DNA of 64,000 nt from an uncultured Pelagibacteraceae bacterium (lineage in GTDB: Bacteria; Pseudomonadota; Alphaproteobacteria; Pelagibacterales; Pelagibacteraceae). Of this stretch, positions 20,632 to 45,879 are shown piece after piece; position 1 is the stretch's first letter; every line of letters starts with the position of its first letter. The stretch lies in the NCBI GenBank assembly GCA_902597425.1, contig CACJXT010000001.1:1-64000 (forward strand), given 5' to 3'. A program made the position numbers and the translations under genes. Below the pieces are notes generated by a model. It made no database searches. It was not told the origin of the DNA and was given only the letters and a program-made list of their open reading frames with translations.

Positions 20632-21270
20632 TTATTTTACTTCTGATAAAATTTGTTCTGAGAGTTGTTTAATTTCTTCTACAGCTTGACTTTTTTTTTG
20701 TTTTTCAACAGCTGTTTTACCTTCACCCATAGAAGCCGCATAAATTTGGCGATTACCAATTATTGTTTTAGTTGCTAAAAGATTTAAGCTTTTGATAAAA
20801 TCATTTGTTTTACTAATAAGTTTAGATCTTTGATTGGCTCTGTTAATTTGTATTAAAATTTTTTTATTTGCTTTTTTTGCTATTTCCACAATTGCGCCTG
20901 TTGCCCAAAAATCAACATGAGAAGCTGACATAGGAATCAAAACTAAGTCTGCAGATTCAATAGATGGACGAGCATCTGATTCTATTTTTGGAGGAGTATC
21001 AATAATTACTATATCATGGTCTTTTTTTAATGCTTTTGACTCATACTGTGCTCCCCACAAACTAGCAGTTTTAAATGTTAAATTCTCGTTTGGAAGTTTT
21101 TTTTCTGCTCTTATCATAAACCATTTCCCCAAACTTCCTTGTGGATCAGTATCTATAATAGCAACTTTTAAGTTATGATATTTTATAAAAGCGAGAGCTA
21201 AATGAACAGCTAACGTTGTTTTTCCAGTACCACCTTTTTGTTGCGAGATTGTTATAACTTTCGATAGCAT
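20632..21270 (-). CDS. ParA-family ATPase
   Basis: ISQQKGGTGKTTLAVHLALAF deviant Walker A; AIIDTDPQGS; DIVIIDTPP. Confidence 0.85.
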   Translation of the reverse strand: MLSKVITISQQKGGTGKTTLAVHLALAFIKYHNLKVAIIDTDPQGSLGKWFMIRAEKKLPNENLTFKTASLWGAQYESKALKKDHDIVIIDTPPKIESDARPSIESADLVLIPMSASHVDFWATGAIVEIAKKANKKILIQINRANQRSKLISKTNDFIKSLNLLATKTIIGNRQIYAASMGEGKTAVEKQKKSQAVEEIKQLSEQILSEVK

Positions 21271-21588: not shown

Positions 21589-22287
21589 ATGAACAAATTA
21601 TTGCTGCCACAGGACATTGTTGGAGGATCTTTTTGGCTAATTTCTGTTGCGATGATTGGTGCAGCGATATTTTTCTTCCTTGAAAGGGCTCGCCTGTCGA
21701 ACAGATGGGGTACAGTCATGAATCTTGTGGGCGTGATAGCCCTTATGTCTTCGATACACTACTTCTATGCAAAAAATTTATGGATTTTAAATGGTCAGGC
21801 ACCTACTTCGTTGAGGTATATAGACTGGATCTTGACCTTCCCACTTACAATTTTGACTTTTTATGTAATGCTTAAGTCGGTTACCGACGTTAAAAGGGGA
21901 ATGTTTTGGCGTTTACTTGTCGGAACACTCGTTTGGGTGATAGCGCAACTCCTAGGAGCTTATGGATATATGAGCGTTACTCTTGGATTCCTGGTGGGTA
22001 TTGTTGGATGGCTTTACATTGTAGGTGAACTTTATATGGGAGATACAGGAAGAAAAAATGCTGCTTGTGGTAATGAAAGTGTTCAAATGGCATTTTTTGC
22101 GAATAGATTAATTATTACCATAGGTTTTTCAATCTATCATATTGGATATTTTATAGAGCACTTAGCTGGAGGAGCAAACATAAACAGCTTAAACATAATT
22201 TACAACTTAGCCGACGTATTGAATAAAATTATTTTTGGTATGATAATTTATAGTGCGGCTTTAGAAGATACAAAGAAAGGAGCTTGA
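21589..22287 (+). CDS. proteorhodopsin-family protein, flotillin-associated (FArhodopsin) type, DTT motif
   Basis: LRYIDWILTFPLTILTFYVML helix C; NLADVLNKIIFGMIIYSAALE helix G with retinal Lys; His in SSIHYFYAKNLW; SD AGGGAGTGAG; followed by a flotillin gene. Confidence 0.95.
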   Translation: MNKLLLPQDIVGGSFWLISVAMIGAAIFFFLERARLSNRWGTVMNLVGVIALMSSIHYFYAKNLWILNGQAPTSLRYIDWILTFPLTILTFYVMLKSVTDVKRGMFWRLLVGTLVWVIAQLLGAYGYMSVTLGFLVGIVGWLYIVGELYMGDTGRKNAACGNESVQMAFFANRLIITIGFSIYHIGYFIEHLAGGANINSLNIIYNLADVLNKIIFGMIIYSAALEDTKKGA

Positions 22288-22305: not shown

Positions 22306-24276
22306 ATGACAAAAGGAGCAGATATAATAGCAGCAATAATTTTATTAGCACTAGCAATAGCGATTATAGTTTATCTATTGCATTGGCTGTACAGAAGATC
22401 TTCAAAGGAGGTATCTTTTGTAAGAACGGGAATGCTTGGTGAGAAAGTTGTTATCTCAGGTGGAGCCTTCGTCTTACCTATAGTTCACAACATTACCCAA
22501 GTAGGAATGCGTACTCTAAGCTTAAACATAAAAAGAGCTGGTGATAAATCACTTATTACAAAAGATCGAATGAGGGCAGAATTAGTAACAGAATTTTTTA
22601 CAAAAGTACCACCAGAACAAAGAGCTGTTGCGACTGCAGCACAAACCTTAGGTAATAGAACTCTTGATCCCGAACATTTAAGAGAAGTAGTTGCAGGCCG
22701 TTTTGCAGATGCACTTGGAGAAGTTGCAGCAAAAATGACATTAGATGAAATTCAAGAAAACAGAGGACAATTTGTAAAAGAAGTTACAAAAATTGCTAAT
22801 GAATCAATAGGTCATACAGGTTTAGCATTAGAAACTGTTTCTATTATATCATTAGATCAAACGCCAATTGAACAATTTAATCCTGCAAACACTTTTGACT
22901 CTCAAGGCTTAACACAATTAACAGAGCAGATTGAATCTAGAAAGAAAAAAAGAAATGATATTACGCAAGATACAAAAATTTCAATTGAAAATAAAAATTT
23001 AGAAACAGTTCAAAAAGAGTTAGAGATTAAAAAGAACGAAGAATTTTCTAGATATCAGCAAGAAAGAGAAGTGGCTATTCAAAAAGCAAAAGAAAGAACA
23101 GAAACTGTAAAACAAAGAGCAGAAAAAGAACGAGAAGCCGAAGAAGCTGAAATAAGAAGTCAAGAACAAATAGAAGTAGCAAAAATCTCTCAAAACCAAG
23201 TTATTGAAGTTGAAAGAAAATTAACTGAAACAAGGCTGGTCGAAGAAATTGAAAAAAGAAGAAAAGAACAAAATGAGCTGGAGAAAAATTCAGCTTATGA
23301 AATAAGACAAAAAGATCTTGATACAGAAGTTAAGATTTTGAATCTAGACAAAGAAAGTGAGTATGCACGCTTAGAAAAGCAAAGACTTGTTGATATGAAA
23401 CGTGCTCAAGAAAAAGCTACTATAATTAAAGAACAATCTGAAAGACAAAAAGATGCTGAAGAAGCGCAAATAATTTCTGAACAAGAAATTAAGAATGCCA
23501 AAATTGCTCAACAAAGAAATTTAGATGCCCATAGAATTGAGTCAGAAAGAGAAACAAGACTTCTTGATATAGAAAAAGCAAAAAGATTAAGTATAGAGGA
23601 ACATCAAAAAAATCTTGAAATTATAAATAAATCAAAGCAGGTTTTAAGATCTAAAGCTGAAGAACAATCTACCAAAGCTAAAGCAATAGAGGCTGAAGAA
23701 AAAGCTAACTCAGCTAGATACGTTGAAAAAGCGCAAGGAATTAAAAAAGTTGATGTCATCACTGCAGCTTCTAAAGCAGAGCAAGATAGATTTGCAACTA
23801 TGGCAGCAAAACTGAGATATGAGATAGATGCTGCTGGTAAAGAAGCATTAAATGCAGCTGAAAATTTAAGAAGTGATGCAAGTAGAAGAAGCGCTTTAAG
23901 ACTAAAACTTGCTGAAAAAATTGAAGGCATTATTAGAGAAAGCGTTAAACCAATGGCAAATATTGGAGATATTAAAATTGTTGATGTTAATGGTTTACCT
24001 GGTTTTAGTGGAACTTCTGGTTCAGGAGGCAGTGGTGAAGCAGTAACCGCAGGAGGATCTGGAAGAAGTGGCAATCTAGCAGATAACGTAGTTAGTTCTG
24101 CATTACGTTATAGAGCACACCAACCATTTCTAGATAGTTTGCTTAAAGAAATTGGAATGAATCCTGGAGAAATAAGCAATATCAGAAATATTCTTGGTGA
24201 CTATGAAAATCCTAAAAAAGATTATCATATGAACTTTGATAAAGATCCAACTAAAGGAACCAAGGGTTCTAAGTAA
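22306..24276 (+). CDS. flotillin / band-7 (SPFH) family protein
   Basis: N-terminal TM then SPFH domain (RMRAELVTEFFTKVPPE...LREVVAGRFADALGEVAAKMTLDEIQENR) and long E/K/R/Q coiled coil. Confidence 0.9.
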   Translation: MTKGADIIAAIILLALAIAIIVYLLHWLYRRSSKEVSFVRTGMLGEKVVISGGAFVLPIVHNITQVGMRTLSLNIKRAGDKSLITKDRMRAELVTEFFTKVPPEQRAVATAAQTLGNRTLDPEHLREVVAGRFADALGEVAAKMTLDEIQENRGQFVKEVTKIANESIGHTGLALETVSIISLDQTPIEQFNPANTFDSQGLTQLTEQIESRKKKRNDITQDTKISIENKNLETVQKELEIKKNEEFSRYQQEREVAIQKAKERTETVKQRAEKEREAEEAEIRSQEQIEVAKISQNQVIEVERKLTETRLVEEIEKRRKEQNELEKNSAYEIRQKDLDTEVKILNLDKESEYARLEKQRLVDMKRAQEKATIIKEQSERQKDAEEAQIISEQEIKNAKIAQQRNLDAHRIESERETRLLDIEKAKRLSIEEHQKNLEIINKSKQVLRSKAEEQSTKAKAIEAEEKANSARYVEKAQGIKKVDVITAASKAEQDRFATMAAKLRYEIDAAGKEALNAAENLRSDASRRSALRLKLAEKIEGIIRESVKPMANIGDIKIVDVNGLPGFSGTSGSGGSGEAVTAGGSGRSGNLADNVVSSALRYRAHQPFLDSLLKEIGMNPGEISNIRNILGDYENPKKDYHMNFDKDPTKGTKGSK

Positions 24277-24291
24277 CGAAAGTAAAATATT

Positions 24292-24681
24292 ATGAGTAGT
24301 GAGTTAGATAATTGGGCAAAGAAATATGAGGAGGCTACTAATAGTGACGAAACTATTGGAGCAATGGCGAAGTATTATACTTGCTCCTTTATGTTTGATA
24401 TGGAAAAAGCAAAAGTAATTATTGAAATGCATGATGGTAAAGTAAAAAACATTAATACAAATCCTTCACCTTTAGATCCATATGACTTTGCTTTAAGAGC
24501 ATCAGCAAAAACTTGGAGAGAATTTGGCCAACAAATGCCAAAACCAATGTATCACGGTATATGGTCAGCAAGTTTTTTAAAAGATTTAAAAATTGAAGGC
24601 AATCATTTAATTTTAATGAAAAATCTTAGAAATTTTACAGTTCAGTTTGAAATATTAAGAAAAACAGGAGTACCAGTTTAA
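24292..24681 (+). CDS. conserved hypothetical, 129 aa (possibly SCP2-like fold)
   Basis: ORF in tight co-directional series; no motif recognised with certainty. Confidence 0.65.
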   Translation: MSSELDNWAKKYEEATNSDETIGAMAKYYTCSFMFDMEKAKVIIEMHDGKVKNINTNPSPLDPYDFALRASAKTWREFGQQMPKPMYHGIWSASFLKDLKIEGNHLILMKNLRNFTVQFEILRKTGVPV

Positions 24682-24712: not shown

Positions 24713-25567
24713 ATGGTAAAACATCATGATGTAGTAGGTCGTTATGTTACTATTGAGGTTGACGATTGTGAATACAAAGTTTTTTATCTTCAAAATGGAA
24801 AAGGTATACCTTTAATTTGCCAACATACTGCTGGATGTCATAATCATCAATGGAGAGGTTTACTTGAGGACCCAGAAATTACTAAAGATTATAATGTTAT
24901 AGCTTATGATCTTCCAAGACATGGTAAATCAGACCCTCCACATAATAAAGAATGGTGGAAAGAAGAATATAAATTAAAAGCTGAACACTACTGTAATTTT
25001 ATTGTAAAATTGTGTGATGCTTTAGGTTTACAAAAACCTATTTTTATGGGTTCATCTTTTGGTGGAAATGTTGCCTTACAATTAGCATTACGTCATCCAA
25101 ATAAATTTAGAGCTGTAATACCTGTGGAAGCAGCAGATTATGCACCAGGTTTTTATTTAGATTGGTGGAGACATCCTCACGCAAATGCTGCTCAAGTTTG
25201 TGCCAGTGGAACATGGGATCTAATGGCGCCACAATCTCCTGAAAAAGATAGATGGTTAACTTGGCATTACTATACTCAAGGCTCAGAAGCATTTAAAGGA
25301 GATTTATATTTTTACTCTGTTGATCATGATTTGAGAAAAGAATTAAAAAATATTGATGGACATAAATGCCCTGTCGTAATGCTGACAGGAACATATGATT
25401 ATTTAACACCACCAGAGGCAACGGAGAATACTGCAAGACAAATAAAAGGAGGAGTTTATATAGAAATGACTGATATAGGACACTTTCCAATGAGTGAAAA
25501 TCATGAAGTATTTAGAGTTTATTTAATGGAAGCTTTAAAAATTATTAAAGAAAGGACCAACAAATAA
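24713..25567 (+). CDS. alpha/beta-fold hydrolase
   Basis: GSSFGGNVALQLALRHPNKFRAV nucleophile elbow; MTDIGHFPMSEN catalytic His; SD AAGGAG. Confidence 0.85.
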   Translation: MVKHHDVVGRYVTIEVDDCEYKVFYLQNGKGIPLICQHTAGCHNHQWRGLLEDPEITKDYNVIAYDLPRHGKSDPPHNKEWWKEEYKLKAEHYCNFIVKLCDALGLQKPIFMGSSFGGNVALQLALRHPNKFRAVIPVEAADYAPGFYLDWWRHPHANAAQVCASGTWDLMAPQSPEKDRWLTWHYYTQGSEAFKGDLYFYSVDHDLRKELKNIDGHKCPVVMLTGTYDYLTPPEATENTARQIKGGVYIEMTDIGHFPMSENHEVFRVYLMEALKIIKERTNK

Positions 25568-25570
25568 TTT

Positions 25571-25990
25571 ATGACTAAAGACAAAACTGGGGTACAGCTA
25601 AATCAAGGTCACACAAGCACAGACGATTATATAACTCGTACTTACGTTCTTCCTTTATTAAAAGATGAAAAAATGAGAAATAAATTAATTGCAGAACACA
25701 GAGCATGTCCTGTTGGCAAAGCTGCTCAACCTCACAAAGGCCAACCAATGGTAGAGCATAGTAAAGAACTTCAAATTGTTTTAGATAAACTTAGACGACA
25801 GCCAATGCATATAAAAAAATATGTAACAGTTTGCAAAAAAGATTTTGTAGATTATAGAATAGGTATTGTAACTGGAGTAAGAGGTCAGCCGGTTAAAATT
25901 TTAGAAGAGTCTTTTTCTTCAGAAGAAGCCTGTGAGCATGCTATTTTTTTAAAGAGAGTTGTAGATTTATTAGAAAGATATGCAGAATGA
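25571..25990 (+). CDS. N,N-dimethylformamidase small-subunit-like protein
   Basis: 139 aa directly upstream of the large-subunit-like gene; C-terminus DYRIG...FSSEEACEHAIFLKRVVDLLERYAE resembles the recalled DMFase small subunit ending (YRIA...FKTEEEAMHAVFLRRIEDV). Confidence 0.55.
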   Translation: MTKDKTGVQLNQGHTSTDDYITRTYVLPLLKDEKMRNKLIAEHRACPVGKAAQPHKGQPMVEHSKELQIVLDKLRRQPMHIKKYVTVCKKDFVDYRIGIVTGVRGQPVKILEESFSSEEACEHAIFLKRVVDLLERYAE

Positions 25991-26012: not shown

Positions 26013-28370
26013 ATGTTAAGAATTACTGGCTATAGCGATAAATATTCTGCTTTTCCTGGAGAAAAAGTTAAGTTTTATGTGAATGCAGAAAAAAAAGAAA
26101 ATTATGATGTTCAAATTGTTAGATTAATTCATGGAGATACAAATCCAGAAGGTCCTGGCTATAAAGAAGAAGAAATAGGAGCACAATGTAATAAAACGTA
26201 TCAAGGAAGAAACCAAAGAATACATGGTGGTTCTTACGTTGTTATTCCTCAAGATCAAAGATTAAATACATCTAGCTTTACTTTGCAAGCATATATATTT
26301 CCAACAACTTCAGAGAAAGGAAGACAAGGTATTTTAACAAAATGGAATGATAAAGCTAAAAGTGGATATGGACTTTTCATTGATGAAAATGCATGTCTTT
26401 CAGTGATGATAGGAGATGGTGCTGGTCAAATCATGAATCTTTCTAGTGAAAAAAAATTAATGAATAAAATTTGGTATCTTGTAGCCGCAAGTTATGATGC
26501 TGAGACTGGAAAAGTTAAATTATATCAAGAACCATGTGTAACACCAACAAATGGTGGACTGGGTATGTCATTACTTCATCCTGCCGATGAAACAACATCA
26601 TTTGTCGAAGCAACAAATAATTTAAAACCAAGGGCAAACGATGCACCTTTTTTAATGGCAGCATGTACATTAAATGATCGTTCAGGAAGACATATTCAAG
26701 GAGCTCACTATAAAGAAGCAATAGAGCCAGTTGAATTACCAGAACAAACTTTAACTTATAATGGTAAAATCGATAGACCAAGATTAAGTAAAAAAGCTTT
26801 ATCTAAAGCAGAAATTGAATCTTTAGCAAGAGGCTACGGCGGCTGTCCATCAGACTTAAGATCAGAGGTAATCGGAGCTTGGGATTTTCATGCAAATATA
26901 ACTACAAATATTGCTTCAACCTATATTTTAGATACGACTTCAAACCATCTAAATGGTTTTATAATCAATTTACCATGTAGAGGAATGACTGGTTATAATT
27001 GGACAGCAGATGAGATGGTTTTTCACCATAAACCTGAAGAGTATGGAGCGATACACTTTCATGATGATGATATTGATGACGCAAGATGGGAAGTTGATTT
27101 TACTTATGATGTTCCTGATTTAATAAAAAGTGGAGTTTATGCTGCAAGATTAAGAATTAATGGAGAAGACTCTCCTGAGACAGAAGATTTTATTCCATTT
27201 GTAATAAAACCTCCAAAAGGCAAAACAACTTCAAAACTTTTATTTGTATTGCCTTCAAACAGCTATATGGCTTATTCAAATGATAACTTAGGAACAAATT
27301 CAGTAGTTGCTCAATTATTAGCTGGCAAAGTTCCAGTTCTATCTGCGTCAGATTTATATTTAAACGAACATAGAGAATATGGATTATCAACTTATTCTAA
27401 ACATTCAGATGGGAGTGGTGTTGCTATTTCATCAAGATTAAGACCTATACTTAATATGAGACCAAAATATAGACACTGGTTGTCACCTTCTTTATGGCAA
27501 TTAAATGCAGATCTTCATTTAACAGATTGGCTTGAAGAAAAAAATTTAGATTTTGATGTTGTTACAGATGAAGATTTACATATTGAAGGTGTTGATATGT
27601 TAAATCGTTATAGATGTGTTTTAACTGGATCGCACCCAGAATATAGCTCAGAAAAAATGCTTGCTGCATATGAATCGTATCAATTAAATGGTGGGAGATG
27701 GATATATTTAGGTTCTGATGGTTTTTATTGGATTAGTGAATATCATCCAGATAACCCAAATATTATAGAAGTTAGAAAAGGAGAGGCAGGGACAAGAGCT
27801 TGGACAGCAAATCCAGGAGAATATAATAATGCTTTTGATGGAAAATATGGTGGAATGTGGAGAGCAAGAGGAAGAATTCCATCTAAAGTTTGTGGTCTAA
27901 CTTTTACAGCTTATGGATTTGATGTTTCTTCATATTATAAACGAGAACCTGATAGTAAAAGACCAGAATGTTCATGGATTTTTGAAGGTGTTGGAGACGA
28001 TGAGGTTATTGGAGATTTTGGTTTAGTTGGAGGAGGTGCTGCTGGACTTGAGCTTGACAGATATGATCTAGATTTTGGAACACCTCATAACGCTTATTTA
28101 TTAGCAAGATCAGAAAATCATACAAACTTGATGATGCAAGTTAATGAAGAAATCCATTTTACAGTGAGAGGTTTTTATGGTGGAGGAACAGAAAACCCTA
28201 TGGTTAGAGCTGATATGATATATTATAAAACTCCAAATGATGGAGCATTGTTTGCACCTGGTTCTCTCTCTTGGTGTGGAAGTTTGTCTTACAACAATTA
28301 TAATAATAATGTTTCTAAAATTCTTGAGAATGCAATAAGAGGATTTTTAAAGGAGGGGCCATTACCTTAA
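26013..28370 (+). CDS. N,N-dimethylformamidase large-subunit-like protein (LamG-like plus glutamine-amidotransferase-like domains)
   Basis: 785 aa; FTLQAYIFPTTSEKGRQGILTKWN...GYGLFIDENACLSVMIGDG LamG-like region; LLFVLPSNSYMAYSNDN; TGSHPEYSSEKMLAAYESYQLNGGRWIYLGSDGFYW. Confidence 0.8.
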   Translation: MLRITGYSDKYSAFPGEKVKFYVNAEKKENYDVQIVRLIHGDTNPEGPGYKEEEIGAQCNKTYQGRNQRIHGGSYVVIPQDQRLNTSSFTLQAYIFPTTSEKGRQGILTKWNDKAKSGYGLFIDENACLSVMIGDGAGQIMNLSSEKKLMNKIWYLVAASYDAETGKVKLYQEPCVTPTNGGLGMSLLHPADETTSFVEATNNLKPRANDAPFLMAACTLNDRSGRHIQGAHYKEAIEPVELPEQTLTYNGKIDRPRLSKKALSKAEIESLARGYGGCPSDLRSEVIGAWDFHANITTNIASTYILDTTSNHLNGFIINLPCRGMTGYNWTADEMVFHHKPEEYGAIHFHDDDIDDARWEVDFTYDVPDLIKSGVYAARLRINGEDSPETEDFIPFVIKPPKGKTTSKLLFVLPSNSYMAYSNDNLGTNSVVAQLLAGKVPVLSASDLYLNEHREYGLSTYSKHSDGSGVAISSRLRPILNMRPKYRHWLSPSLWQLNADLHLTDWLEEKNLDFDVVTDEDLHIEGVDMLNRYRCVLTGSHPEYSSEKMLAAYESYQLNGGRWIYLGSDGFYWISEYHPDNPNIIEVRKGEAGTRAWTANPGEYNNAFDGKYGGMWRARGRIPSKVCGLTFTAYGFDVSSYYKREPDSKRPECSWIFEGVGDDEVIGDFGLVGGGAAGLELDRYDLDFGTPHNAYLLARSENHTNLMMQVNEEIHFTVRGFYGGGTENPMVRADMIYYKTPNDGALFAPGSLSWCGSLSYNNYNNNVSKILENAIRGFLKEGPLP

Positions 28371-28738
28371 TGAGCAAACCTCAATTTACAAGACCAGAAG
28401 GAACAGGTGGTAAAAGCATATTAGGATCTGATAATGTTACACCTTTTAATGAATTAGAAAAAAATGCTTTAGGAAACTTAGATGAAGACAAACTAAATGA
28501 ACTAGCTAAAAGTCTTTTTACTTTAAATAATAGAAAATACGGACCTATACCAGGAGCTTATATGGTAATGTGTACTAAGCCTGGTAAAGAATGGTGTGTT
28601 GCTCAGCTTAATGCAGATAGAGCAAAACCTTTTATTATATTTGAAGATAAAGTTTTCACTTCAATTGAATCAGCACAGAAAGAAGCAGAAAGAATTAAAA
28701 AAGAGCGAGGTGAAACAGCACCAAGGCGTTGTACCTAA
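28370..28738 (+). CDS. hypothetical protein, 122 aa
   Basis: ATG overlaps the stop region of the upstream gene; NRKYGPIPGAYMVMCTKPGKEWCVAQLNADRAKPFIIFEDKVFTSIESAQKEAERIK; family unknown to me. Confidence 0.7.
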   Translation: MSKPQFTRPEGTGGKSILGSDNVTPFNELEKNALGNLDEDKLNELAKSLFTLNNRKYGPIPGAYMVMCTKPGKEWCVAQLNADRAKPFIIFEDKVFTSIESAQKEAERIKKERGETAPRRCT

Positions 28739-28754: not shown

Positions 28755-30821
28755 ATGTCCGAAAAATCACTTTGGTTGTTTATTTTTATATTGTTGTATG
28801 CCGCTTATTGTTTTTTCTGGGGAGTAAGGGGTTCAAGATATAATTCTGATAATCCAGAAAAGTATTATTTAGCAAACAGAGATGTTTCTTCGTGGGTTTT
28901 TTTCTTCGCTGCTACAGCAGCAACTTTTGCTGGACTAACAGTAATTTCTCAAACAGGTTTGATTTTTCATGACGGCTTTCAATATGTTGGCACAGCATTT
29001 ATTGCTATTACCGTTCCCCTAGGAAGTATATTTTTTTTTAAGAGACAGTGGATGTTAAGTAGAAAGTTTGGATATATTACCCCAGGCGAAATGTATTTCG
29101 ATTATTACAAGAGCGATACAATTCGTGTTATTTCAGTTTTAGTCACATTTTTTGTAGCGATACCTATTATAGCAGTTTTATTTGGAGCAACAGGCTTTTT
29201 AGTGAATACAATGACAGAAGGATATGTGCAAAGAGAACTAGCCATGTGGGTGGTTGCTACTATTGTTTTGTTTTATGTAACAAGAGGTGGATTTAAATCT
29301 ACCGTAAGCATAGGAGTGGTCCAGTCTTGGCTTTATTTTTTAAGCATATTTCTTTTAGGAATAATTGTTTATTTCTTTGTAGGAGATATTGAATCTTTTG
29401 GTAAATCATTATCAAAAATAGCAAACACATCAGTTAGCACTTGGGGAAACACCAATGGTTATGGAGGCGGAGATTATAACGGATATTTTGCTTTACCTGG
29501 TGTTATTCAATGGGTAGCAGGATTAGGAAAGAATGAAGCAGTGGGGGGTCCTTGGACAGCTATGATGATTTTTACTTTTACTATTTCCTTTATGGGAATT
29601 GTTCTTTCACCTTCATTTTCTATGTGGAGTTATTCTGTAAAACATCCAAAAGCTTTTTCTTATTATCAGATTTGGGGATCTGCCGTTATTGTAGGTTTGT
29701 TATTATTTGTATTTGCCACATACCAAGGAATTGGTGCAAGCTTATTAGGAGCAAATGCAGATATCAATAACAATAATCTTTCAATCAATAATGTATTGCC
29801 AGAGGTTTCTAAAAAAGATCATTCATTAATAATTTACCATATTATAAGCTTAATGGATAAACACGCTCTTTGGTTAACTGGTTTATTAGCTGTAGGGTTG
29901 ATTGCAGCACTTCAATCAACAGCTGCAGCTCTTTTAATGACATCCGGAAGTATTATTACAAGAGATTTATATAAAGCTTATGTAAATAAAAACATAAGTT
30001 GGGAAAAAGAACGTTCGGCTGCACGAATAATAATTTTACTAATATTTCTGGCTTCGCTCTATGTAGCAACATTCGCTAAGCCAGCAATGGTAATTTTTAG
30101 CGGCATATCAATTTCTATTGCATTTCAGCTCTTAATCGTTTTACTAGGCATGGTTTGGTTTCCTTGGATCACAAGAGGAGCAGCAATTTCTGGATTGGTT
30201 ATTGGAATAATTATTGTTGTTTTAACAGAAACTTTAGGACAACAAATTACAGGTAATAGATTACCTTGGGGAAGGTGGCCGTTGACTATTCACTCAGGAG
30301 TTTGGGGATTATTATTTAATGTGTTTGTTTGTTTTTCTATTTCTGCATTTTCTTCAATCACAAAAATTGACACCTATAGACCACACAGACAGAAGTTTCA
30401 TAATTTTTTAAATGATCATATGGGTCTCCATCCAAGCAGAACAAAGTTAAGATCTTTTGCATATGTAATTGCATTAATTTGGCTTTTTTTTGGAGTTGGA
30501 CCTGGACAGGTATTAGGTAATAATTTTTTTGGAGAACCTGGTGGTGGTTACGAAGCTTGGATACTTAAAATACCATCTATTTGGGGGTACCAACTTATTT
30601 GGTGGCTTTTTGGTATAGGGTTAATTTGGTTTTTAGCTAGCAAAATGGATTTATCTACTTTACCAAATAAACCTATTCAACCAAATGATATTTATAAAGA
30701 GCCAGATGATGTTCAAGGAGAAATTAATTATATTGATAAAGTCGGAACAGGGTATGGTTGGATACTAATCTTAGTAGGAATGGCGATTTTTTCAATAATA
30801 TTTTATATTTATTTTGTATAA
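28755..30821 (+). CDS. sodium:solute symporter (SSS) family transporter
   Basis: 688 aa, more than 12 TM; NPEKYYLANRDVSSWVFFFAATAATFAGLTVISQTGLIF; GLIAALQSTAAALLMTSGSIITRDLY. Confidence 0.85.
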   Translation: MSEKSLWLFIFILLYAAYCFFWGVRGSRYNSDNPEKYYLANRDVSSWVFFFAATAATFAGLTVISQTGLIFHDGFQYVGTAFIAITVPLGSIFFFKRQWMLSRKFGYITPGEMYFDYYKSDTIRVISVLVTFFVAIPIIAVLFGATGFLVNTMTEGYVQRELAMWVVATIVLFYVTRGGFKSTVSIGVVQSWLYFLSIFLLGIIVYFFVGDIESFGKSLSKIANTSVSTWGNTNGYGGGDYNGYFALPGVIQWVAGLGKNEAVGGPWTAMMIFTFTISFMGIVLSPSFSMWSYSVKHPKAFSYYQIWGSAVIVGLLLFVFATYQGIGASLLGANADINNNNLSINNVLPEVSKKDHSLIIYHIISLMDKHALWLTGLLAVGLIAALQSTAAALLMTSGSIITRDLYKAYVNKNISWEKERSAARIIILLIFLASLYVATFAKPAMVIFSGISISIAFQLLIVLLGMVWFPWITRGAAISGLVIGIIIVVLTETLGQQITGNRLPWGRWPLTIHSGVWGLLFNVFVCFSISAFSSITKIDTYRPHRQKFHNFLNDHMGLHPSRTKLRSFAYVIALIWLFFGVGPGQVLGNNFFGEPGGGYEAWILKIPSIWGYQLIWWLFGIGLIWFLASKMDLSTLPNKPIQPNDIYKEPDDVQGEINYIDKVGTGYGWILILVGMAIFSIIFYIYFV

Positions 30822-30827
30822 TTAATT

Positions 30828-31997
30828 ATGACTTTAAACACATTTAATTTTTACACGACACACGGAATTCGATTTGGAAATGGCCAAGCAAAAGATTCAT
30901 GTAAAGAAATTTTTAAGCAACTTGGTACTCGTATTCTTTTTATTACTGATAAAGGACTAATATCACTAGGCTTAACAAAGCCAACCATAGAAGAATTAAA
31001 AAAAATGGGTTCAGTTGAGGTGTTTGATGATGTAGAAGCTGATCCCTCTAAAAAAACACTTTTAAAAGCAATTGATGCTGGAAAAAAGTTTAAAGCAACA
31101 GGAGTTATTGGTTTTGGCGGAGGATCATCAATGGATGTAGCCAAATTAGCAGCATTAATACTTGGATCAAATGAAGATTTAGAAAAAGCATGGGGAGTTG
31201 CAAATGCAAAAGGGCCGCGTCTACCTTTAGCTTTAGTTCCAACTACCGCTGGTACTGGTTCAGAGGTTACACCTGTATCAATAATTACGGTTGGAGCTGA
31301 AGAAAAAAAAGGAGTATCTTCAGCAATAATTTTACCTGATTTAGCAATTTTAGATCCAGAACTTACACTTGGTCTTCCTGCAGCAACTACTGCATCAACA
31401 GGTATTGACGCCATGGTTCATGCAATTGAAGGATATTCTTCTTCAAATAAAAATAATAATGTTATTTCAAAAATGCTAGCAATCGAAGCACTCAAATTAC
31501 TCGGAGGTTCAATTGAAAAAGCTGTTGTAGATGGATCAAATGTTGAAGCTAGAGGAAATATGCTTATAGGAGCCATGTTAGCTGGAAAAGCTTTTGCAAA
31601 TTCTCCGGTAGCTGCTGTTCATGCTTTAGCTTACCCAATAGGAGGAACTTTTCACATTTCTCATGGTCTTTCGAATTCGTTGGTTTTACCTTATGTGCTG
31701 AGGTTTAATAGCGTTGATTTAAAAGCAGCAAAAGATTATGCTGAACTTGCTCCATATGTTTTTCCAAAATTAGATATTAACAAAGGTACCCAAGCAGTAT
31801 GTGCAGAATTTATTGATAAGATGGAAGATTTATCGAAAAGACTTGGTTTACCCCAGAAGTTAAGAGAAGTTGATATTCCAAAGAATGCTTGTGAAAAAAT
31901 GGCAAGTGACGCAATGAAACAAACTAGATTATTAGTTAACAATCCTAGAGAAGTAACTGAAAAAGATGCGTTTAACATTTATCAATCAGCTTGGTAA
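30828..31997 (+). CDS. iron-containing alcohol dehydrogenase
   Basis: GFGGGSSMDVAKLAAL; VPTTAGTGSEVTPVSII; GIDAMVHAIEGY; HALAYPIGGTFHISHGLSNSL. Confidence 0.9.
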   Translation: MTLNTFNFYTTHGIRFGNGQAKDSCKEIFKQLGTRILFITDKGLISLGLTKPTIEELKKMGSVEVFDDVEADPSKKTLLKAIDAGKKFKATGVIGFGGGSSMDVAKLAALILGSNEDLEKAWGVANAKGPRLPLALVPTTAGTGSEVTPVSIITVGAEEKKGVSSAIILPDLAILDPELTLGLPAATTASTGIDAMVHAIEGYSSSNKNNNVISKMLAIEALKLLGGSIEKAVVDGSNVEARGNMLIGAMLAGKAFANSPVAAVHALAYPIGGTFHISHGLSNSLVLPYVLRFNSVDLKAAKDYAELAPYVFPKLDINKGTQAVCAEFIDKMEDLSKRLGLPQKLREVDIPKNACEKMASDAMKQTRLLVNNPREVTEKDAFNIYQSAW

Positions 31998-32008: not shown

Positions 32009-32845
32009 ATGAAAGAAAAAGATAAAGATATTTTTGAACAAACGACAAAATTTAACACAGGTATTAAGCTATATATGTTTCAAACAGGGTCAATTAAAAC
32101 AAAATTAAAATTTATAAAAATGAATCAGGGTGAAGAACCTTATGAAATACCTGTGCCATGGTTTTTGATAAAACATCCAGAAGGAGATGTAATTATTGAC
32201 GGCGGTATGCCAATAGAAGCAGCTCTTGATAAACATAAACATTGGGGTTCTGTGGTCGAAGCTTATGATCCAGTAATGAAAACATCAGAATGGTGTAAAG
32301 ACATGATTAAAACTGTAAATACAAAACCTGAAGACGTTAAGTATGTTATACAAACTCACCTTCACTTAGATCACTCAGGTGCTATAGGACATTTTCCGAA
32401 TGCTACCCACATCACTCAAAGACTAGAATATGACTATGCATTTAATCCTGATTGGTTTTCACAACCAGCTTACATAAGAGCAGATTTTGATAAACCAAAC
32501 ATTCGTTGGAAATTTTTACAAGGTAGAAAAACTGATTTTTATGATGTTTATGGTGACGGTGTTATAAAAGTAATATTTACTCCGGGTCATACTCCAGGAC
32601 ATCAATCGGTATTAGTTAATCTTCCAAAAACCGGTTACATGTTATTTACTGGAGATGCTTGTTATACGGGAGATCATTGGTGTGATAAATGTTTACCAGG
32701 ACTTGTATCTTCATCTTCTGATGCCGCAGAGTCTGTTAAAAAATTAAGAAGAGTTGCAAAAGAAAATAATGCAAAAGTCGTGTGGGGTCATGACCCAGTT
32801 TCTTGGCAAGATTGGAAAAAAGCACCTATGTTTTACTATGATTAA
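32009..32845 (+). CDS. metallo-beta-lactamase-fold hydrolase (N-acyl homoserine lactonase-like)
   Basis: QTHLHLDHSGAIGHFPNA (HxHxDH); FTPGHTPGHQSVLV; FTGDACYT. Confidence 0.85.
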   Translation: MKEKDKDIFEQTTKFNTGIKLYMFQTGSIKTKLKFIKMNQGEEPYEIPVPWFLIKHPEGDVIIDGGMPIEAALDKHKHWGSVVEAYDPVMKTSEWCKDMIKTVNTKPEDVKYVIQTHLHLDHSGAIGHFPNATHITQRLEYDYAFNPDWFSQPAYIRADFDKPNIRWKFLQGRKTDFYDVYGDGVIKVIFTPGHTPGHQSVLVNLPKTGYMLFTGDACYTGDHWCDKCLPGLVSSSSDAAESVKKLRRVAKENNAKVVWGHDPVSWQDWKKAPMFYYD

Positions 32846-32891: not shown

Positions 32892-33458
32892 ATGAAAAAT
32901 AATACAACTTTAATCAATTCGTTTCTTTCGACATACAATATAAATACTTATATTAAAAATATTTCTTTAGTATTATTTGGCACTTTACTTCTAACACTAT
33001 CTTCAAAAGTTCAAGTTCCATTTTGGCCAGTACCTATGACAATGCAAACTTTTATAGTTTTTATTATTGGAATGGCTTATGGATGGAAATTAGCTTTTTT
33101 TACATTAGTTGCTTATCTTCTTGAAGGAGCTTTGGGTTTACCAGTATTTGCTAAAGGTGGAGGCTTACTTTATTTAACAGGTCCTACAGCAGGTTATCTT
33201 TATGGCATGACAATAGCAGCTGGTGTTATAGGTGCTTTTGCAGAACTTGGTTATAACAATTCTTATTTTAAAAGTTTGATATCTCTCCTAATTGGAACTT
33301 TTATCATCTTTTTATTTGGAGTTGGATATCTTGGTTCGGTAATAGGATACGATAAAGCATTAGCAGGAGGATTATATCCTTTTATTCCAAGCGAATTCTT
33401 TAAAATTGGCCTTGCAGTAGTTCTTATTCCATCTATCACTAGGTATATTAGAAGATAA
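32892..33458 (+). CDS. bioY: BioY-family biotin transporter S component
   Basis: SKVQVPFWPVPMTMQTFIVFIIGMAYGWKLAFFTLVAYLLEGALGLPVFAKGGG; TGPTAGYLYGM. Confidence 0.9.
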   Translation: MKNNTTLINSFLSTYNINTYIKNISLVLFGTLLLTLSSKVQVPFWPVPMTMQTFIVFIIGMAYGWKLAFFTLVAYLLEGALGLPVFAKGGGLLYLTGPTAGYLYGMTIAAGVIGAFAELGYNNSYFKSLISLLIGTFIIFLFGVGYLGSVIGYDKALAGGLYPFIPSEFFKIGLAVVLIPSITRYIRR

Positions 33459-35494: not shown

Positions 35495-36622
35495 TTAATT
35501 AAAAAAACGAACTTTTATATTTTTCATTCCCTTTTTTTCCATCATTTTATTTCTAATTTTTTCATCTAGTTTTTCTTTATCAAAATCTACTACTTTAATA
35601 TGATCAATTTTATTGATTTGTTTTTTTCTAATTAATATATCTTGTTTGCTAGAAGAAACTAAACTTGCTTCACTGCAAATAATTGTCTGTTCAGACCTTA
35701 ATGTTTGAGCTTTTTCAACTGAGATTTCAACAAAATTAAAACTATCTCCCGGTTTTGCTTGTCCGAGTTTCCAAAAAGAAGCTGATGGAACAGTATAAGG
35801 AACAATAAATCCACCCATGCTCGGACCATCATTGACTAGTATAATTGGAGTTTGTCCAGCTAAATTAATTGCTCCAACCGGATATCCTTGATCAATAATA
35901 TTTGAAGGAAAAGTTCCATGTTCTAAACCTTTGTTAGTTGCTTTTTCTGTAAAAGACCACTTTGGTCCTTCTAATCTGTAACCAGTTCTGTCACTTTTGG
36001 ACTGAAGTTTCCAATTAGAATTTAAAAACATTTTATGTCCCTTTTCATCAACCCAATCATCATTAGGACCTTTAACAACTTCTACAGACCATTTTTTATT
36101 TATGGACATAACTGGTATAGAGCTTTTATTAATTTTTCTTCCAGAGATGGACTTAGATTTATTTAAAGGAATAATCTGACCATCTTGAATTGCTTTTCCA
36201 TCGATACCACCAACTCCTGCTTTATGAAAAGTTGATCGTGAACCTAGCCATGGAGTGGTATTTATTCCTCCTGAAAAAGCAATGTAAGACCTAGCCCCTA
36301 TTATTGCAAAAGCCATTTCTAATATCTGATCTTTTTTAACTTCCAAACTTTCCCATAAAGGAACTGGTGTTCCATCTATTTTTGGAGACATGTCAGCTCC
36401 AGTGATAGCAATAATTCTATCACTATTAAATTTAAGAGTAGGCCCCATAAACTGACATTCTAAAGCTGCAGTTCCAGGTTCATTCCCAACTAGAACATTG
36501 GCAAGTCTAAAAGACCAACTATCCATTGGACCTGAAGGCGGAAAGCCTAGATTTAGAGTCCCAATTCTTCCAGGATAATCTTGAACAGATGTTTCTAGAC
36601 CTTTTTTAATTACTTTTACCAT
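35495..36622 (-). CDS. pxpC: PxpC/KipA-like (AHS2) biotin-dependent carboxyltransferase-family subunit with lysine-rich C-terminal tail
   Basis: VQDYPGRIGTLNLGFPPSGPMDSWSFRLANVLVGNEPGTAALECQFMGPTLKF; DGPSMGGFIVPYTVPSASFWKLGQAKPGDSF; tail HIKVVDFDKEKLDEKIRNKMMEKKGMKNIKVRFFN. Confidence 0.85.
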   Translation of the reverse strand: MVKVIKKGLETSVQDYPGRIGTLNLGFPPSGPMDSWSFRLANVLVGNEPGTAALECQFMGPTLKFNSDRIIAITGADMSPKIDGTPVPLWESLEVKKDQILEMAFAIIGARSYIAFSGGINTTPWLGSRSTFHKAGVGGIDGKAIQDGQIIPLNKSKSISGRKINKSSIPVMSINKKWSVEVVKGPNDDWVDEKGHKMFLNSNWKLQSKSDRTGYRLEGPKWSFTEKATNKGLEHGTFPSNIIDQGYPVGAINLAGQTPIILVNDGPSMGGFIVPYTVPSASFWKLGQAKPGDSFNFVEISVEKAQTLRSEQTIICSEASLVSSSKQDILIRKKQINKIDHIKVVDFDKEKLDEKIRNKMMEKKGMKNIKVRFFN

Positions 36623-36627
36623 AAATA

Positions 36628-39084
36628 TTAAAACCTTTTTGTTTGATCAATTGTAGTTAACCATTTTTTGTAATTTTTTACCGAGAATTTCTGATACTCA
36701 ATAATATTGTAATCATAAGTTCCTTCTTCTACTTTTTTTGATACATGATCAAATTCTTCATAAGTCGTAGGAACAAATTTTACTCTATCTCCTGGTTGGA
36801 AAAGACAAATGTTGTTTTCAAATACTGGAAAACTTTTTTTTGTATCCCATATTGGAACAGGAATGATACCAAAAATTTGGTATCCACCTGGCAATCTGTC
36901 AGGGTATATTGATGTAGAAGCGCCTCCCATTCCAACAGTTCCTTTTGGCGTCCATGTTCGTGGAGGGTTATATTTTGGAACTGTAAGTTTACACCTTGGA
37001 TCAAGAGCCATCATAAATGGAAGACCAGGCCAAAAACCTATAGCAGAAACCCAATATTCTGTACCAGAATGTACTCTTACAAACTGTTCAGTACTTTCAA
37101 GATTATTTAACTCTGTAATAAGTTCAGGATCAGGTTTCTTTTTTGCAATTTTGCTTGAATAATCCTCAACACATTCTTTCGTCCATTTATCAAGATAAAC
37201 AGTAGGAAAAGAAAAGATTCTACTATTAATTTCAATATCGTCAGAAGGACCTAAAGAACTTACAAGAGACTTTAGTTCGTTTTTTAAATCATTAAATTTT
37301 ATTTCTTCTGGTTCGTAATGCACTAACATTGAAGCAAAACATGGAGATGTTTCGTACACTCCTTTAACTTTATTATCTTTGATTGCTTTAGCTAAGTTTT
37401 GAGCAGTAAAATTTAATTCTAAATTCATAATATTACCGAATTCAATAAGCATATATTTATCACCTGCAGGCAAAAATTTAGGCGTATCATAAATTTTACC
37501 TTGAATATTTTTAACTTCTGTTTTTACTTCAGCCTCTGACACTCTATTCTTTGAAGAAACAATGTTATCGAAAGCTTTTAAATCTTTTTCAGTATAGCCT
37601 TGACCATTTTTACTTTTCGGAGTTTTAGCAATAATTTTTTCAAAAGCTTTTACATCTTTATCACTGTACTCTTGTTTACTTTTAGCCACATCTTGTTTTT
37701 TGATTGGCAAAATATCTTCTTTTTTCTCAATAAATAAGTTCAAATTATTTTCAATAAATTTAGTATTAAAATTTGATTCTTCAAAAGTTTTATTTTGTAG
37801 TACAGATATCAAAAAAGATTTATTAGTATTAATTCCCTCAATTTCAAATTCTTTTAAATATTTTACCATGTTATTAATACTTTCAGTTCTATTAGAACCT
37901 TTAGAAATAATTTTTGCTATCATTGGATCATAATAAAAAGATATTTCATCTCCTTCATCAACACCAATGTCTAATCTAATATTTGACAAACCGATATTTG
38001 GAATTTTAAGTTTTGAAATTTTTCCAGGCGAGGGAAGAAAATTTTTTGAAGGATCTTCTGCATATAATCTACACTCAATGGCATGTCCAGTTCTACTAAT
38101 TTTATTTTGTTCTGTTAAATCAAGATCAATACCTAATGCAAACTTTATTTGCATCTCAACTAAGTCAGAATTAGTTATAGATTCTGTTACAGGATGTTCT
38201 ACTTGAATTCGTGTATTCATTTCTAAAAAGTAGAATTTTTTTTCGTCTACATCGTAAATAAATTCTATTGTTCCAGCACCTTCATATTTTTGATTGGTAG
38301 CAAAATTAACTGCACTTTCTGCTATTTTATTTATAATTTCTGGTTCTACTTTTGGTGCTGGACTTTCTTCTATAATTTTTTGAAATCTTCTTTGTATTGA
38401 ACAATCTCTTTCATAAAAATGAACAGCCTTTTTTTCACCAAAACCAAATATTTGTATTTCTATGTGTCTTGCATTTTTTATAAATTTTTCTAAAAAAACA
38501 TCGCTATTACCAAAAGCTTTCTTTGCTAAATTTTTTGTTTTTTCTACAGATTTAAGTAATTCGCTGTAGTTATTTACAATTTGCATTCCTATTCCGCCGC
38601 CACCAGCGCTTGCTTTAATTAAAATTGGAAATCCAATCTCATTACATTTTTTTTCTAAATCACTTTTTTCTAAATCTTTATTGTTTAAACCTGGGCAAAT
38701 TGGTAGATTGCTTTTTAAAGCCAAATCTCTAGCTATGTCTTTGTTGCCCATTGATACAATAGTATTAGGCTTAGGCCCTATCCAAACGATACCAGCATCG
38801 ATTACTTTTTTTGCAAATTGATCATTTTCAGCTAGAAAACCGTAGCCAGGATGAATAGCATCAGCTTTTACTTTTTGAGCAGCTTCAATTATTTTATCTA
38901 AGGATAAATAGCTTTCCTGAGCTTTTGAAGCACCTATATGTATTGATTCATCTGCTTTTCTTACATGTTTGCTATTTTTATCTACATCAGAATAAACCGC
39001 AACTGAATGAAACTTTAATTTTTTACAGCTGTCAATAATTCTGCAAGCTATTTCCCCACGATTAGCAACTAATATTTTTTTCAT
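36628..39084 (-). CDS. biotin carboxylase fused to PxpB/KipI-like (AHS1) domain through a repeat-bearing linker
   Basis: N-term MKKILVANRGEIACRIIDSCKKL, KASAGGGGIGMQIV, FLEMNTRIQVEHPVTE; C-term GFWPGLPFMMALDPRCKLTVPKYNPPRTWTPKGTVGMGGASTSIYP; 818 aa. Confidence 0.9.
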   Translation of the reverse strand: MKKILVANRGEIACRIIDSCKKLKFHSVAVYSDVDKNSKHVRKADESIHIGASKAQESYLSLDKIIEAAQKVKADAIHPGYGFLAENDQFAKKVIDAGIVWIGPKPNTIVSMGNKDIARDLALKSNLPICPGLNNKDLEKSDLEKKCNEIGFPILIKASAGGGGIGMQIVNNYSELLKSVEKTKNLAKKAFGNSDVFLEKFIKNARHIEIQIFGFGEKKAVHFYERDCSIQRRFQKIIEESPAPKVEPEIINKIAESAVNFATNQKYEGAGTIEFIYDVDEKKFYFLEMNTRIQVEHPVTESITNSDLVEMQIKFALGIDLDLTEQNKISRTGHAIECRLYAEDPSKNFLPSPGKISKLKIPNIGLSNIRLDIGVDEGDEISFYYDPMIAKIISKGSNRTESINNMVKYLKEFEIEGINTNKSFLISVLQNKTFEESNFNTKFIENNLNLFIEKKEDILPIKKQDVAKSKQEYSDKDVKAFEKIIAKTPKSKNGQGYTEKDLKAFDNIVSSKNRVSEAEVKTEVKNIQGKIYDTPKFLPAGDKYMLIEFGNIMNLELNFTAQNLAKAIKDNKVKGVYETSPCFASMLVHYEPEEIKFNDLKNELKSLVSSLGPSDDIEINSRIFSFPTVYLDKWTKECVEDYSSKIAKKKPDPELITELNNLESTEQFVRVHSGTEYWVSAIGFWPGLPFMMALDPRCKLTVPKYNPPRTWTPKGTVGMGGASTSIYPDRLPGGYQIFGIIPVPIWDTKKSFPVFENNICLFQPGDRVKFVPTTYEEFDHVSKKVEEGTYDYNIIEYQKFSVKNYKKWLTTIDQTKRF

Positions 39085-39088
39085 TTAC

Positions 39089-39826
39089 TTATTTTTTTGA
39101 CAGAGCGTTCTTTAGGTTTGTAATAATTTCAACAGCATTAGGTGTATCAGAATGTACACAAATCGTGTCACATCCTACATCTATGTCTGTGCCACTTGTA
39201 GTTTTAACTTTTTTTTTTGAAATTGCTCTTAAAGCACGCTCCACAGCTAAATTACTGTCATAAATAGCATTTTTACCTTTTGCTATAACTAACTTACCAT
39301 TTTTATCATAATCTAAATCTGCATAAAACTCTGCAACAAAATCAAGTTTCCTTTCTTTTTTATAAATTTTTTCATGGGCAGTATTTGCCATTCCAAAAAT
39401 ACTAACATTAAAAGGCGCAACAGCATCTGCTATAGCTCTACACATATCTTCGTCTTTTGAAGCCATAACATATAATGATCCATGAGGCTTGATGTGATTT
39501 AAAGGCATATTTAATTCATCTAAAAAAGCTTTAAGTGCACCAACTTGATACATAATCATGTTTTTTAAATCTAATTTTGGCATTTTCATTTCTCTTCTTC
39601 CAAAACCTTGCAGATCTGGAAAAGATGGGTGAGCACCAACTTTTACTTTATGTTTTTTTGCTAACTCAACAGTTTTTCTCATATGGTTAGGATCTGAAGC
39701 ATGAAAACCACAAGCAACATTGGCAATGTCAATTAGAGGCATTATTTCTTCATCATTTCCGGCAGAATATATTCCAAAGCTTTCACCCATATCACAATTA
39801 ATTTTTGTCATTTTATTTTTTTTCAT
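39089..39826 (-). CDS. pxpA: PxpA / LamB-YcsF-family 5-oxoprolinase subunit
   Basis: INCDMGESFGIYSAGNDEEIMPLIDIANVACGFHASDPNHMRKTVELAKKHKVKVGAHPSFPD; ORF extends to 39871 but Met at 39826 (or 39811) is the likelier start, overlapping the permease stop. Confidence 0.9.
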   Translation of the reverse strand: MKKNKMTKINCDMGESFGIYSAGNDEEIMPLIDIANVACGFHASDPNHMRKTVELAKKHKVKVGAHPSFPDLQGFGRREMKMPKLDLKNMIMYQVGALKAFLDELNMPLNHIKPHGSLYVMASKDEDMCRAIADAVAPFNVSIFGMANTAHEKIYKKERKLDFVAEFYADLDYDKNGKLVIAKGKNAIYDSNLAVERALRAISKKKVKTTSGTDIDVGCDTICVHSDTPNAVEIITNLKNALSKK

Positions 39827-39827
39827 T

Positions 39828-41243
39828 TTAAATTTGTGATCTAATATGTGGTGATCTAGCGTATAGAGCAACCATTGGTATAATTAATAAACCTAATATA
39901 AACTGTTGTGCTTCCCATTTTAACCCCCAACCAATTAGTACCGTTGTAATTACTTGTAAAATCAAAACTCCAATTACACTTAATCCGTATCCACCAACAC
40001 CTCCTAATAAAGAAGTTCCTCCAACAACAACTGCAGCAATCGTTAAAAATAAATATGTATCACCAACTCCTATGAAACCACCTCCACTCCAACCAAGAAG
40101 CAATGCACCAGTTAGAGATGCAAAAAAACCACTAATTACATAAGCACCTACCCAATACCCTCTTTCTGAAATAGATAATCTTGCTGATGATAAACGACTT
40201 CCTCCAAGAGCATAAAGATTTCTTCCCCATTTAGTTAAGCGAAGTGCAACAATTATAATTATAGAAGCAACAATCCAAACCAAAATAATAGGAGGAATAG
40301 GCAATCCCACAGTTTCACCATTCATTGAGGCAATATTTCTCATCCACTCTGGCACAACACCAAAAACTGTACCTGCAGAAAAAGTACCCATTGCTACAAG
40401 AATTTGAACACCTCCCTTAACAAAAAAACCAACACCTAAAGTTAATATTAATGCCTGACCTTGTAGCCTAAAACTTAAGATACCATTTATTAATCCTATT
40501 ATTAAACCTAATATTAACACAGCAGCCAAAGCCAACCATGGAGGCACACCTTTTGATATTAACGACATTAGAGCAACATTCGATGCTCCTATCAAAAATG
40601 GAATTGACAAATCAAGACCGCCTAATAATGCAACAAAGGTTTGACCCACTGTAGCTAAACCTAAAAATGCTGCAAACACCAACATTGCTTTCATGTTCAG
40701 AAGAGAGAGAAAGCCACCTATGGTAAGTGATCCTAATATAAACAATGCAATTAATACACAAATACCAATAAAAACACTTTTTTGGGCAGTTATATATCGA
40801 CCAACAACTCCCATTAATATTATAAAACCTAAGAATATTAAAAAAGATACTAACGTACGGCCAGAAAAGAAACCTTCAGCAATAAATGAAACAAAAATAA
40901 AAATAAGTATTAATAATATAAAAGCTAATGTTTTCCATTTATGTTCACGAATATTTTTGAAAAAGAAATTTTCTTCGTCCTCATCTTCAGATAAAGTTTT
41001 TCCTTCAACCTTTTCTTTTTCCGGGAATTTAGCAAATATATTTTTCTTTAAATCACTATCAATCCATCTAACAGAAAAGTGATACCAGCCCCATAAAATT
41101 AATCCGGTCACTGCTATTGAATATGTTACAATATTCATCCAGTCAGCCCCGTCATACCAACCTAATACAGCGGTACCTATTCCGCACAAGATTGCAAACA
41201 ACAATCCTAAACCTTTAAAGAAAAGAAAAGCTGATCTTTTCAT
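39828..41243 (-). CDS. ABC transporter permease (sugar/branched-chain BPD_transp_2 type) with N-terminal membrane extension
   Basis: GLDLSIPFLIGASNVALMSL; TLGVGFFVKGGVQILVA; VVGGTSLLGGVGGYGLSVIGVLIL. Confidence 0.85.
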   Translation of the reverse strand: MKRSAFLFFKGLGLLFAILCGIGTAVLGWYDGADWMNIVTYSIAVTGLILWGWYHFSVRWIDSDLKKNIFAKFPEKEKVEGKTLSEDEDEENFFFKNIREHKWKTLAFILLILIFIFVSFIAEGFFSGRTLVSFLIFLGFIILMGVVGRYITAQKSVFIGICVLIALFILGSLTIGGFLSLLNMKAMLVFAAFLGLATVGQTFVALLGGLDLSIPFLIGASNVALMSLISKGVPPWLALAAVLILGLIIGLINGILSFRLQGQALILTLGVGFFVKGGVQILVAMGTFSAGTVFGVVPEWMRNIASMNGETVGLPIPPIILVWIVASIIIIVALRLTKWGRNLYALGGSRLSSARLSISERGYWVGAYVISGFFASLTGALLLGWSGGGFIGVGDTYLFLTIAAVVVGGTSLLGGVGGYGLSVIGVLILQVITTVLIGWGLKWEAQQFILGLLIIPMVALYARSPHIRSQI

Positions 41244-41244
41244 T

Positions 41245-43566: not shown

Positions 43567-43569
43567 AAA

Positions 43570-45863: not shown

Positions 45864-45879
45864 ACTTTAACTTAAAGTA

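Follow-up and report, generated by a model that had tools for sequence, protein, structure and literature searches.

A flotillin-associated rhodopsin of SAR11 as a probably retinal-free member of a conserved transport and catabolism operon

Flotillin-associated rhodopsins (FArhodopsins) are found in bacteria that rank among the most abundant of the ocean. The stretch of 64,000 nucleotides analyzed here (the window), from an uncultured Pelagibacteraceae bacterium, carries an opsin gene at 21589-22287 on the forward strand. What does an opsin do next to a flotillin gene and a set of genes for transport and catabolism? Our main reading, to which as a whole we give a probability of about 0.5, is that this protein is a retinal-free SAR11 FArhodopsin that serves as a light-independent partner of flotillin.

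The open reading frame, with exact coordinates, encodes 232 amino acids and matches the Pfam family Bac_rhodopsin (E 7.6e-26), indicating a type-1 rhodopsin of the proteorhodopsin family. In the alignment with 4jq6 and SAR11 proteorhodopsins, RYIDWILTFPLTILTFYVML forms helix C. Relative to 4jq6, residues D79, T83, T87, and T90 correspond to D97, T101, position 105, and E108 in proteorhodopsin numbering, the helix-B His is H57, and the retinal-binding lysine position is retained as K213 (codon 22225-22227, forward strand). Two features of a proton pump, the retinal Lys and the Asp counterion (K213 and D79), are present, but the carboxylate donor at position 108 is missing (T90). The N-terminal extension of proteorhodopsins is absent as well, leaving a short N terminus without signal peptide. 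Rfam and tRNA scans across the window gave no matches.

That the product is a SAR11 FArhodopsin is hardly in doubt. FArhodopsins carry DTT, DTL, or DNI; the SAR11 form, also seen in this protein, is DTT plus a tuning-site Thr. The 2023 description of the SAR11 members (Haro-Moreno et al., 2023; PMC10308929) gives them DTT, the tuning-site Thr, a cluster of about 26 kb, and a flotillin gene that a spacer of 16 nt separates from the opsin gene, and DTT-T rhodopsins had already been seen before (Olson et al., 2018; PMC5864233). The kind is already known (described 2018-2023), and the window protein is one more member. It shares DTT-T, the short N terminus, the flotillin gene directly downstream, and the cluster of about 26 kb with these SAR11 proteins (PMC10308929, PMC5864233), from which it does not differ in any essential respect; the protein of AG-390-L03 (L072), the SAG that served the 2023 study (PMC10308929) as reference, is 94% identical to it. 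A search of PDB chains returned FArhodopsin 9r21 as best match (E 3.6e-87), with 9r23 also among the closest solved chains (57-59% identity to both). These two also ranked first when the folded model was searched (TM 0.88), and their titles name PsFAR and its double mutant H84V/E120G. FArhodopsins and proteorhodopsins are set apart in a 36-opsin tree with support of 100/100, which becomes 91/84 once lysine-less forms are added. No relatives of the FArhodopsin were found in viral contigs. The first-pass annotation had read a rhodopsin at this place with D97 and T101 kept, Thr at 105, Thr in place of E108, the helix-B His and helix-G Lys, and a flotillin gene directly downstream, and all of this is confirmed, the flotillin gene lying on the same strand 18 nt past the stop codon. 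Its assignment to the FArhodopsin group, for which it had proposed a phylogeny as a check, is likewise borne out by the motif, the tuning-site Thr, the flotillin gene, the cluster of about 26 kb, and the placement outside the proton-pump clade.

The main departure from proteorhodopsins seems to lie in the retinal pocket. Position 84 is Phe (codon 21838-21840, forward strand, as are the following codons); functional proteorhodopsins have Val here, and all FArhodopsins have Phe or His. Position 120 is Gln (21946-21948), where proteorhodopsins have Gly, FArhodopsins have Glu, Gln, or Gly, and lysine-less relatives have Arg; in the alignment, Gly occurs among FArhodopsins in one HIMB59-type group, the others having Gln or Glu. 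In helix F, F180 (22126-22128) replaces the Trp of the retinal pocket and H184 (22138-22140) replaces a Pro, both of which are retained in proteorhodopsins and non-SAR11 FArhodopsins, so that W180F and P184H are in the alignment peculiar to SAR11 FArhodopsins. The small residues at 84 and 120 and the helix-F Trp and Pro of an open pocket are lacking, and the residues are those of a reduced pocket. These statements rest on the alignment and not on the AlphaFold model, which was built from 19 close sequences and is of moderate quality only (pLDDT 61).

Structures of a FArhodopsin relative, PsFAR of Pseudothioglobus (9r21), and of its mutant (9r23) have been solved by others, and our use of them is limited to PDB titles and sequences. 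The two mutations, H84V and E120G, fall on the first two of the four pocket positions. PsFAR shares its fold, its clade, and bulky or polar residues at 84 and 120 with the window protein, but has H84 and E120, keeps W180 and P184, and reads D-T-M, whereas the window protein has F84, Q120, F180, and H184 and reads D-T-T. The study behind 9r21 reportedly deals with FArhodopsins not binding retinal. Blue and green proteorhodopsins (4jq6, 7b03, 9r22) have the fold, D97, T101, the helix-B His, and the retinal Lys in common with the window protein, which differs from them by the lack of the donor Glu, the Thr at the tuning site, the filled pocket, the missing signal peptide, and its separate clade. 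When a DTT-T protein was produced in E. coli with added retinal, no pigment formed and light caused no change in pH (PMC5864233), although the membrane of E. coli may not be the right one for it. Because the pocket residues are bulky or polar and this relative formed no pigment, retinal binding is unlikely, and the window FArhodopsin very probably carries no retinal in the cell. Judged by the residues, the Thr at 108 appears to be the lesser change and the filling of the pocket at 84, 120, 180, and 184 the stronger signal. The first-pass annotation had laid stress on the donor Thr, which is real, but had missed the pocket; its view that the protein is "probably not an ordinary fast proton pump" was correct but too weak in the light of the filled pocket, the DTT-T relative without pigment, and the lysine-less relatives in the same operon described below.

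The FArhodopsin gene opens a cluster of about 26 kb (21589-47082), which is syntenic with AG-390-L03 over the part compared. On the forward strand it is followed by the gene for a flotillin of 656 amino acids (22306-24276; Flot 1.5e-29, Band_7 3.9e-08), and co-transcription of the two genes has been shown by others. Next comes a 129-aa protein (24292-24681), without Pfam match here but probably the sterol-carrier (SCP) protein reported for the cluster (PMC10308929). An alpha/beta hydrolase (24713-25567), whose identity among most operons is 79-98% even between classes, precedes genes resembling the small (25571-25990; 6lvb_B, E 1e-4) and large (26013-28370; 6lvb_A, E 3e-190) subunits of dimethylformamidase. 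By alignment, the large-subunit-like protein retains the counterparts of 6lvb Y399, Y440, and E521, which we take to be the region of the iron site. Further downstream are a 122-aa protein whose family was not recognized (28370-28738), a sodium:solute symporter family protein (28755-30821), an iron-containing alcohol dehydrogenase (30828-31997), a metallo-beta-lactamase-fold hydrolase (32009-32845), and a BioY biotin transporter (32892-33458). The reverse strand carries biotin-dependent carboxylase/carboxyltransferase genes with a PxpA (LamB/YcsF) protein (35495-39871) and a sugar-type ABC transporter (39828-47082) consisting of two BPD_transp_2 permeases, a 175-aa unknown, an ATPase, and a Peripla_BP_4 binding protein.

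This arrangement is conserved. We collected 80 FArhodopsin loci from species genomes, mostly SAR11 and HIMB59-type (the latter with DNI); flotillin is present in 78, and the other two stop at or near the contig end shortly past the opsin gene. All 63 long operons, i.e., loci with at least 7.5 kb of downstream sequence, contain both flotillin and the dimethylformamidase-like large subunit; the SCP-like, alpha/beta hydrolase, small-subunit, and symporter genes occur in 61 of them and the 122-aa protein in 32. In HIMB59-type, some SAR11-like, and several larger-genome genomes, the gene for the second ABC permease immediately precedes the opsin gene. The FArhodopsin gene is always found within a transport and catabolism operon. 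The dimethylformamidase-like enzymes are 74-96% identical among FArhodopsin operons versus 37-47% to relatives elsewhere, and flotillin was absent from all three dimethylformamidase regions without FArhodopsin in which it was sought.

Several smaller features of the region were also recorded. A ParA/MipZ-like ATPase gene (20632-21270, reverse strand) lies divergently upstream of the opsin gene. Of the 66 loci whose upstream flanks are long, 33 share this arrangement (SAR11 type). The carboxyltransferase, the 175-aa unknown, and the ABC ATPase of the cluster are unrelated to one another but have similar short C-terminal tails, IKVVDFxKEK...KIKVxxF (35495-35599, 43570-43665, and 44097-44177, reverse strand). 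This tail, possibly a tag for assembly, occurs nowhere else in the window among open reading frames of at least 100 amino acids and is kept in two of the three proteins in L086. Two copies each of a repeat, Y(T/S)(D/E)(K/E)D(L/V/M)xxF(E/D)xI, are present in the biotin carboxylase fusion, within its linker (37596-37668), and in the 175-aa unknown (43764-44070), both on the reverse strand.

The operon is not limited to streamlined ocean bacteria. Lysine-bearing FArhodopsins were found in metagenome-assembled genomes (MAGs) of the gammaproteobacterium CSMAG_266, which comes from a cold-seep sediment catalog (PMC10491686), of Hyphomicrobiales OFTM302, of Chromatiales Ww634, and of another gammaproteobacterium (L124-L127). 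Neither a second opsin nor blh was detected in these bins (G297, G298, G299, and G300; 1.6-5.4 Mb), whose completeness is not given. Misbinning is not evident in the larger-genome MAGs, since the G+C content of the FArhodopsin contigs agrees with that of contigs in the same bins (46.8% vs. 45.5-48.2%, 59.3% vs. 58.4-59.9%, and 61.4% vs. 57.4-66.3%); one MAG with two FArhodopsin types (L080 and L091) is probably a mixed bin.

A search with flotillin led further, to a complete alphaproteobacterial genome (G807; 100% complete, 3.8 Mb) with an orthologous operon, in which the hydrolase is 79%, the SCP-like protein 66%, the ABC protein 56%, the permeases 51-55%, and flotillin 52% identical to the window. 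Its opsin shows only 31% identity, and K213 is replaced by Arg, D79 by Gly, and R76 by Pro. Orthologous operons with lysine-less opsins are also present in three genomes of the same family (G1099, G1181, and G1135; 96-99% complete) and, on shorter pieces, in G1157 and G1123 (95-98% complete). Across these six genomes position 213 is Arg or Leu and position 79 is Gly or Thr, and no proteorhodopsin was found in any of them with a query that does find them in sister genomes. The loci L213, L232, L233, L234, L235, and L238 come from Alphaproteobacteria that do not belong to the SAR11 order, with genomes of 2.3-7.5 Mb that are 95-100% complete; they have the orthologous flotillin/ABC operon with lysine-less opsins, other opsins not being found. 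FArhodopsins without the lysine had been described next to flotillin from freshwater, on short contigs (2023; PMC10308929); new here is their placement in whole genomes with the transporter operon. Like the FArhodopsin, the lysine-less forms (PMC10308929; L213, L232-L235) lie between an ABC permease and flotillin and have the stretch WLYILGE and Gly at 146, where proteorhodopsins have Tyr or Trp. They differ by K213 to Arg or Leu, D79 to Gly or Thr, and an identity of about 30-35%, which means that their function may differ from that of FArhodopsins. In the tree, which has long branches, both groups fall on one side of a branch (93/89), and this is not decisive. Dimethylformamidase was not found in the stretches examined of the L213 and L232-L235 operons.

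The genome of the window (64.7% complete) contains a second rhodopsin (G000:C6:7276-8040; L001:1405-2169) in the neighborhood typical of SAR11 proteorhodopsins, with ferredoxin and reductase genes. It reads E97, T101, Q105, and M108, with Asn in place of the helix-B His, and is thus ETM-Q rather than DTE, the motif in all of the eleven nearest genus relatives checked. AG-464-B04 (L137), another FArhodopsin carrier, has a paralogue at the proteorhodopsin locus with K94, E97, T101, L105, and Q108. The two group together with support of 97/88 on long branches in the tree of 36 opsins, as a small clade of non-DTE proteorhodopsins in FArhodopsin-bearing SAR11. Pairwise dN/dS is 0.16-0.22 for the second rhodopsin of the window's genome versus about 0.10-0.14 between ordinary proteorhodopsins. 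The gene blh is present in all seven other genus genomes searched; it was not found in the window's own genome, which at 64.7% completeness carries little weight.

Between FArhodopsins dN/dS is 0.018-0.045, with dS near saturation, and this strong purifying selection indicates that the FArhodopsin is retained for some function. If the protein is retinal-free, a light-independent partnership within the operon is somewhat favored over other roles. It would be a seven-helix opsin whose ligand pocket is filled by F84, Q120, F180, and H184 while the lysine and the counterion Asp remain, and would, independently of light, partner flotillin, its co-transcribed neighbor, in the membrane. In this way it may help to build or hold a membrane patch containing the ABC transporter and symporter of the operon, close to the enzymes (a dimethylformamidase-like amide hydrolase, the alpha/beta hydrolase, and a dehydrogenase) that would consume the imported compound. 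We infer contact with flotillin and the transporters as well as a structural role. A salt bridge between lysine and Asp may stabilize the fold of the marine forms, in which both are retained; still, the conservation of K213 in all lysine-type loci and of D79 in nearly all counts against a purely structural role, which does not account for it. A reported preference of the FArhodopsin genes for the lower photic zone, and the proteorhodopsin in every host genome reported earlier, also count against this reading (PMC10308929).

The alternative that survives best, though unlikely, is that the protein serves the operon's substrate as a small-molecule or lipid sensor or carrier, with the former retinal pocket now binding another ligand. 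It would suit an operon made of uptake and hydrolysis genes with an SCP-like gene reported next door (PMC10308929), and a solved retinal-free proteo-opsin holds decanoate (title of 8cnk), but the operon has no transducer gene (window annotation; PMC10308929), and the pocket looks filled rather than reshaped, with residues that vary between lineages having the same operon. Less likely still is that the protein is light-driven after all, a slow pump or a sensor, slowed by the missing donor and able to bind retinal or another carotenoid only within its native flotillin-organized membrane. K213, D79, and the helix-C Thr, kept in most lysine-type members, would be expected of such a protein; expression around the deep chlorophyll maximum and the co-occurrence of proteorhodopsin have been reported (PMC10308929), and blh is at hand in genus relatives. 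Against it stand the bulky residues at 84 and 120, with W180F and P184H in SAR11, the lack of pigment in E. coli (PMC5864233), the lysine-less orthologues in the same operon, and hosts without other opsin or blh, one of them from cold-seep sediment. The proposal of the 2023 authors that FArhodopsin forms a mixed oligomer with ordinary proteorhodopsin and tunes dim-light pumping (PMC10308929) agrees with the proteorhodopsins in many SAR11 and HIMB59-type hosts, but is improbable given the single opsin in G807, G1099, G1181, and G1135 (96-100% complete), the FArhodopsin as only opsin seen in G297-G300, and a partner in the window's own genome that is not a DTE pump. A role that requires light and a general role as proteorhodopsin helper are thus disfavored by the pocket, the lone-opsin hosts, and the lysine-less operon relatives, and we prefer the light-independent partnership with flotillin.

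What is added here is the conservation of the operon, larger-genome hosts without a detected second opsin, and Arg/Leu-213 opsins in Alphaproteobacteria that are 95-100% complete. The four residues at 84, 120, 180, and 184 can be named for a gain-of-pigment test, and among the larger-genome Proteobacteria with the same operon some are perhaps cultivable; there, deleting the gene may be less difficult than in SAR11. The comparison shifts the question from which weak pump this is to whether a rhodopsin fold can serve transport and flotillin patches without light. Tentatively, and at slightly less than even odds, FArhodopsins may be opsins that gave up light and became retinal-independent parts of a flotillin-organized operon for transport and catabolism, an operon more widely distributed than the streamlined bacteria of the ocean from which the group was named; in larger-genome Alphaproteobacteria the lysine and the counterion would be lost too.
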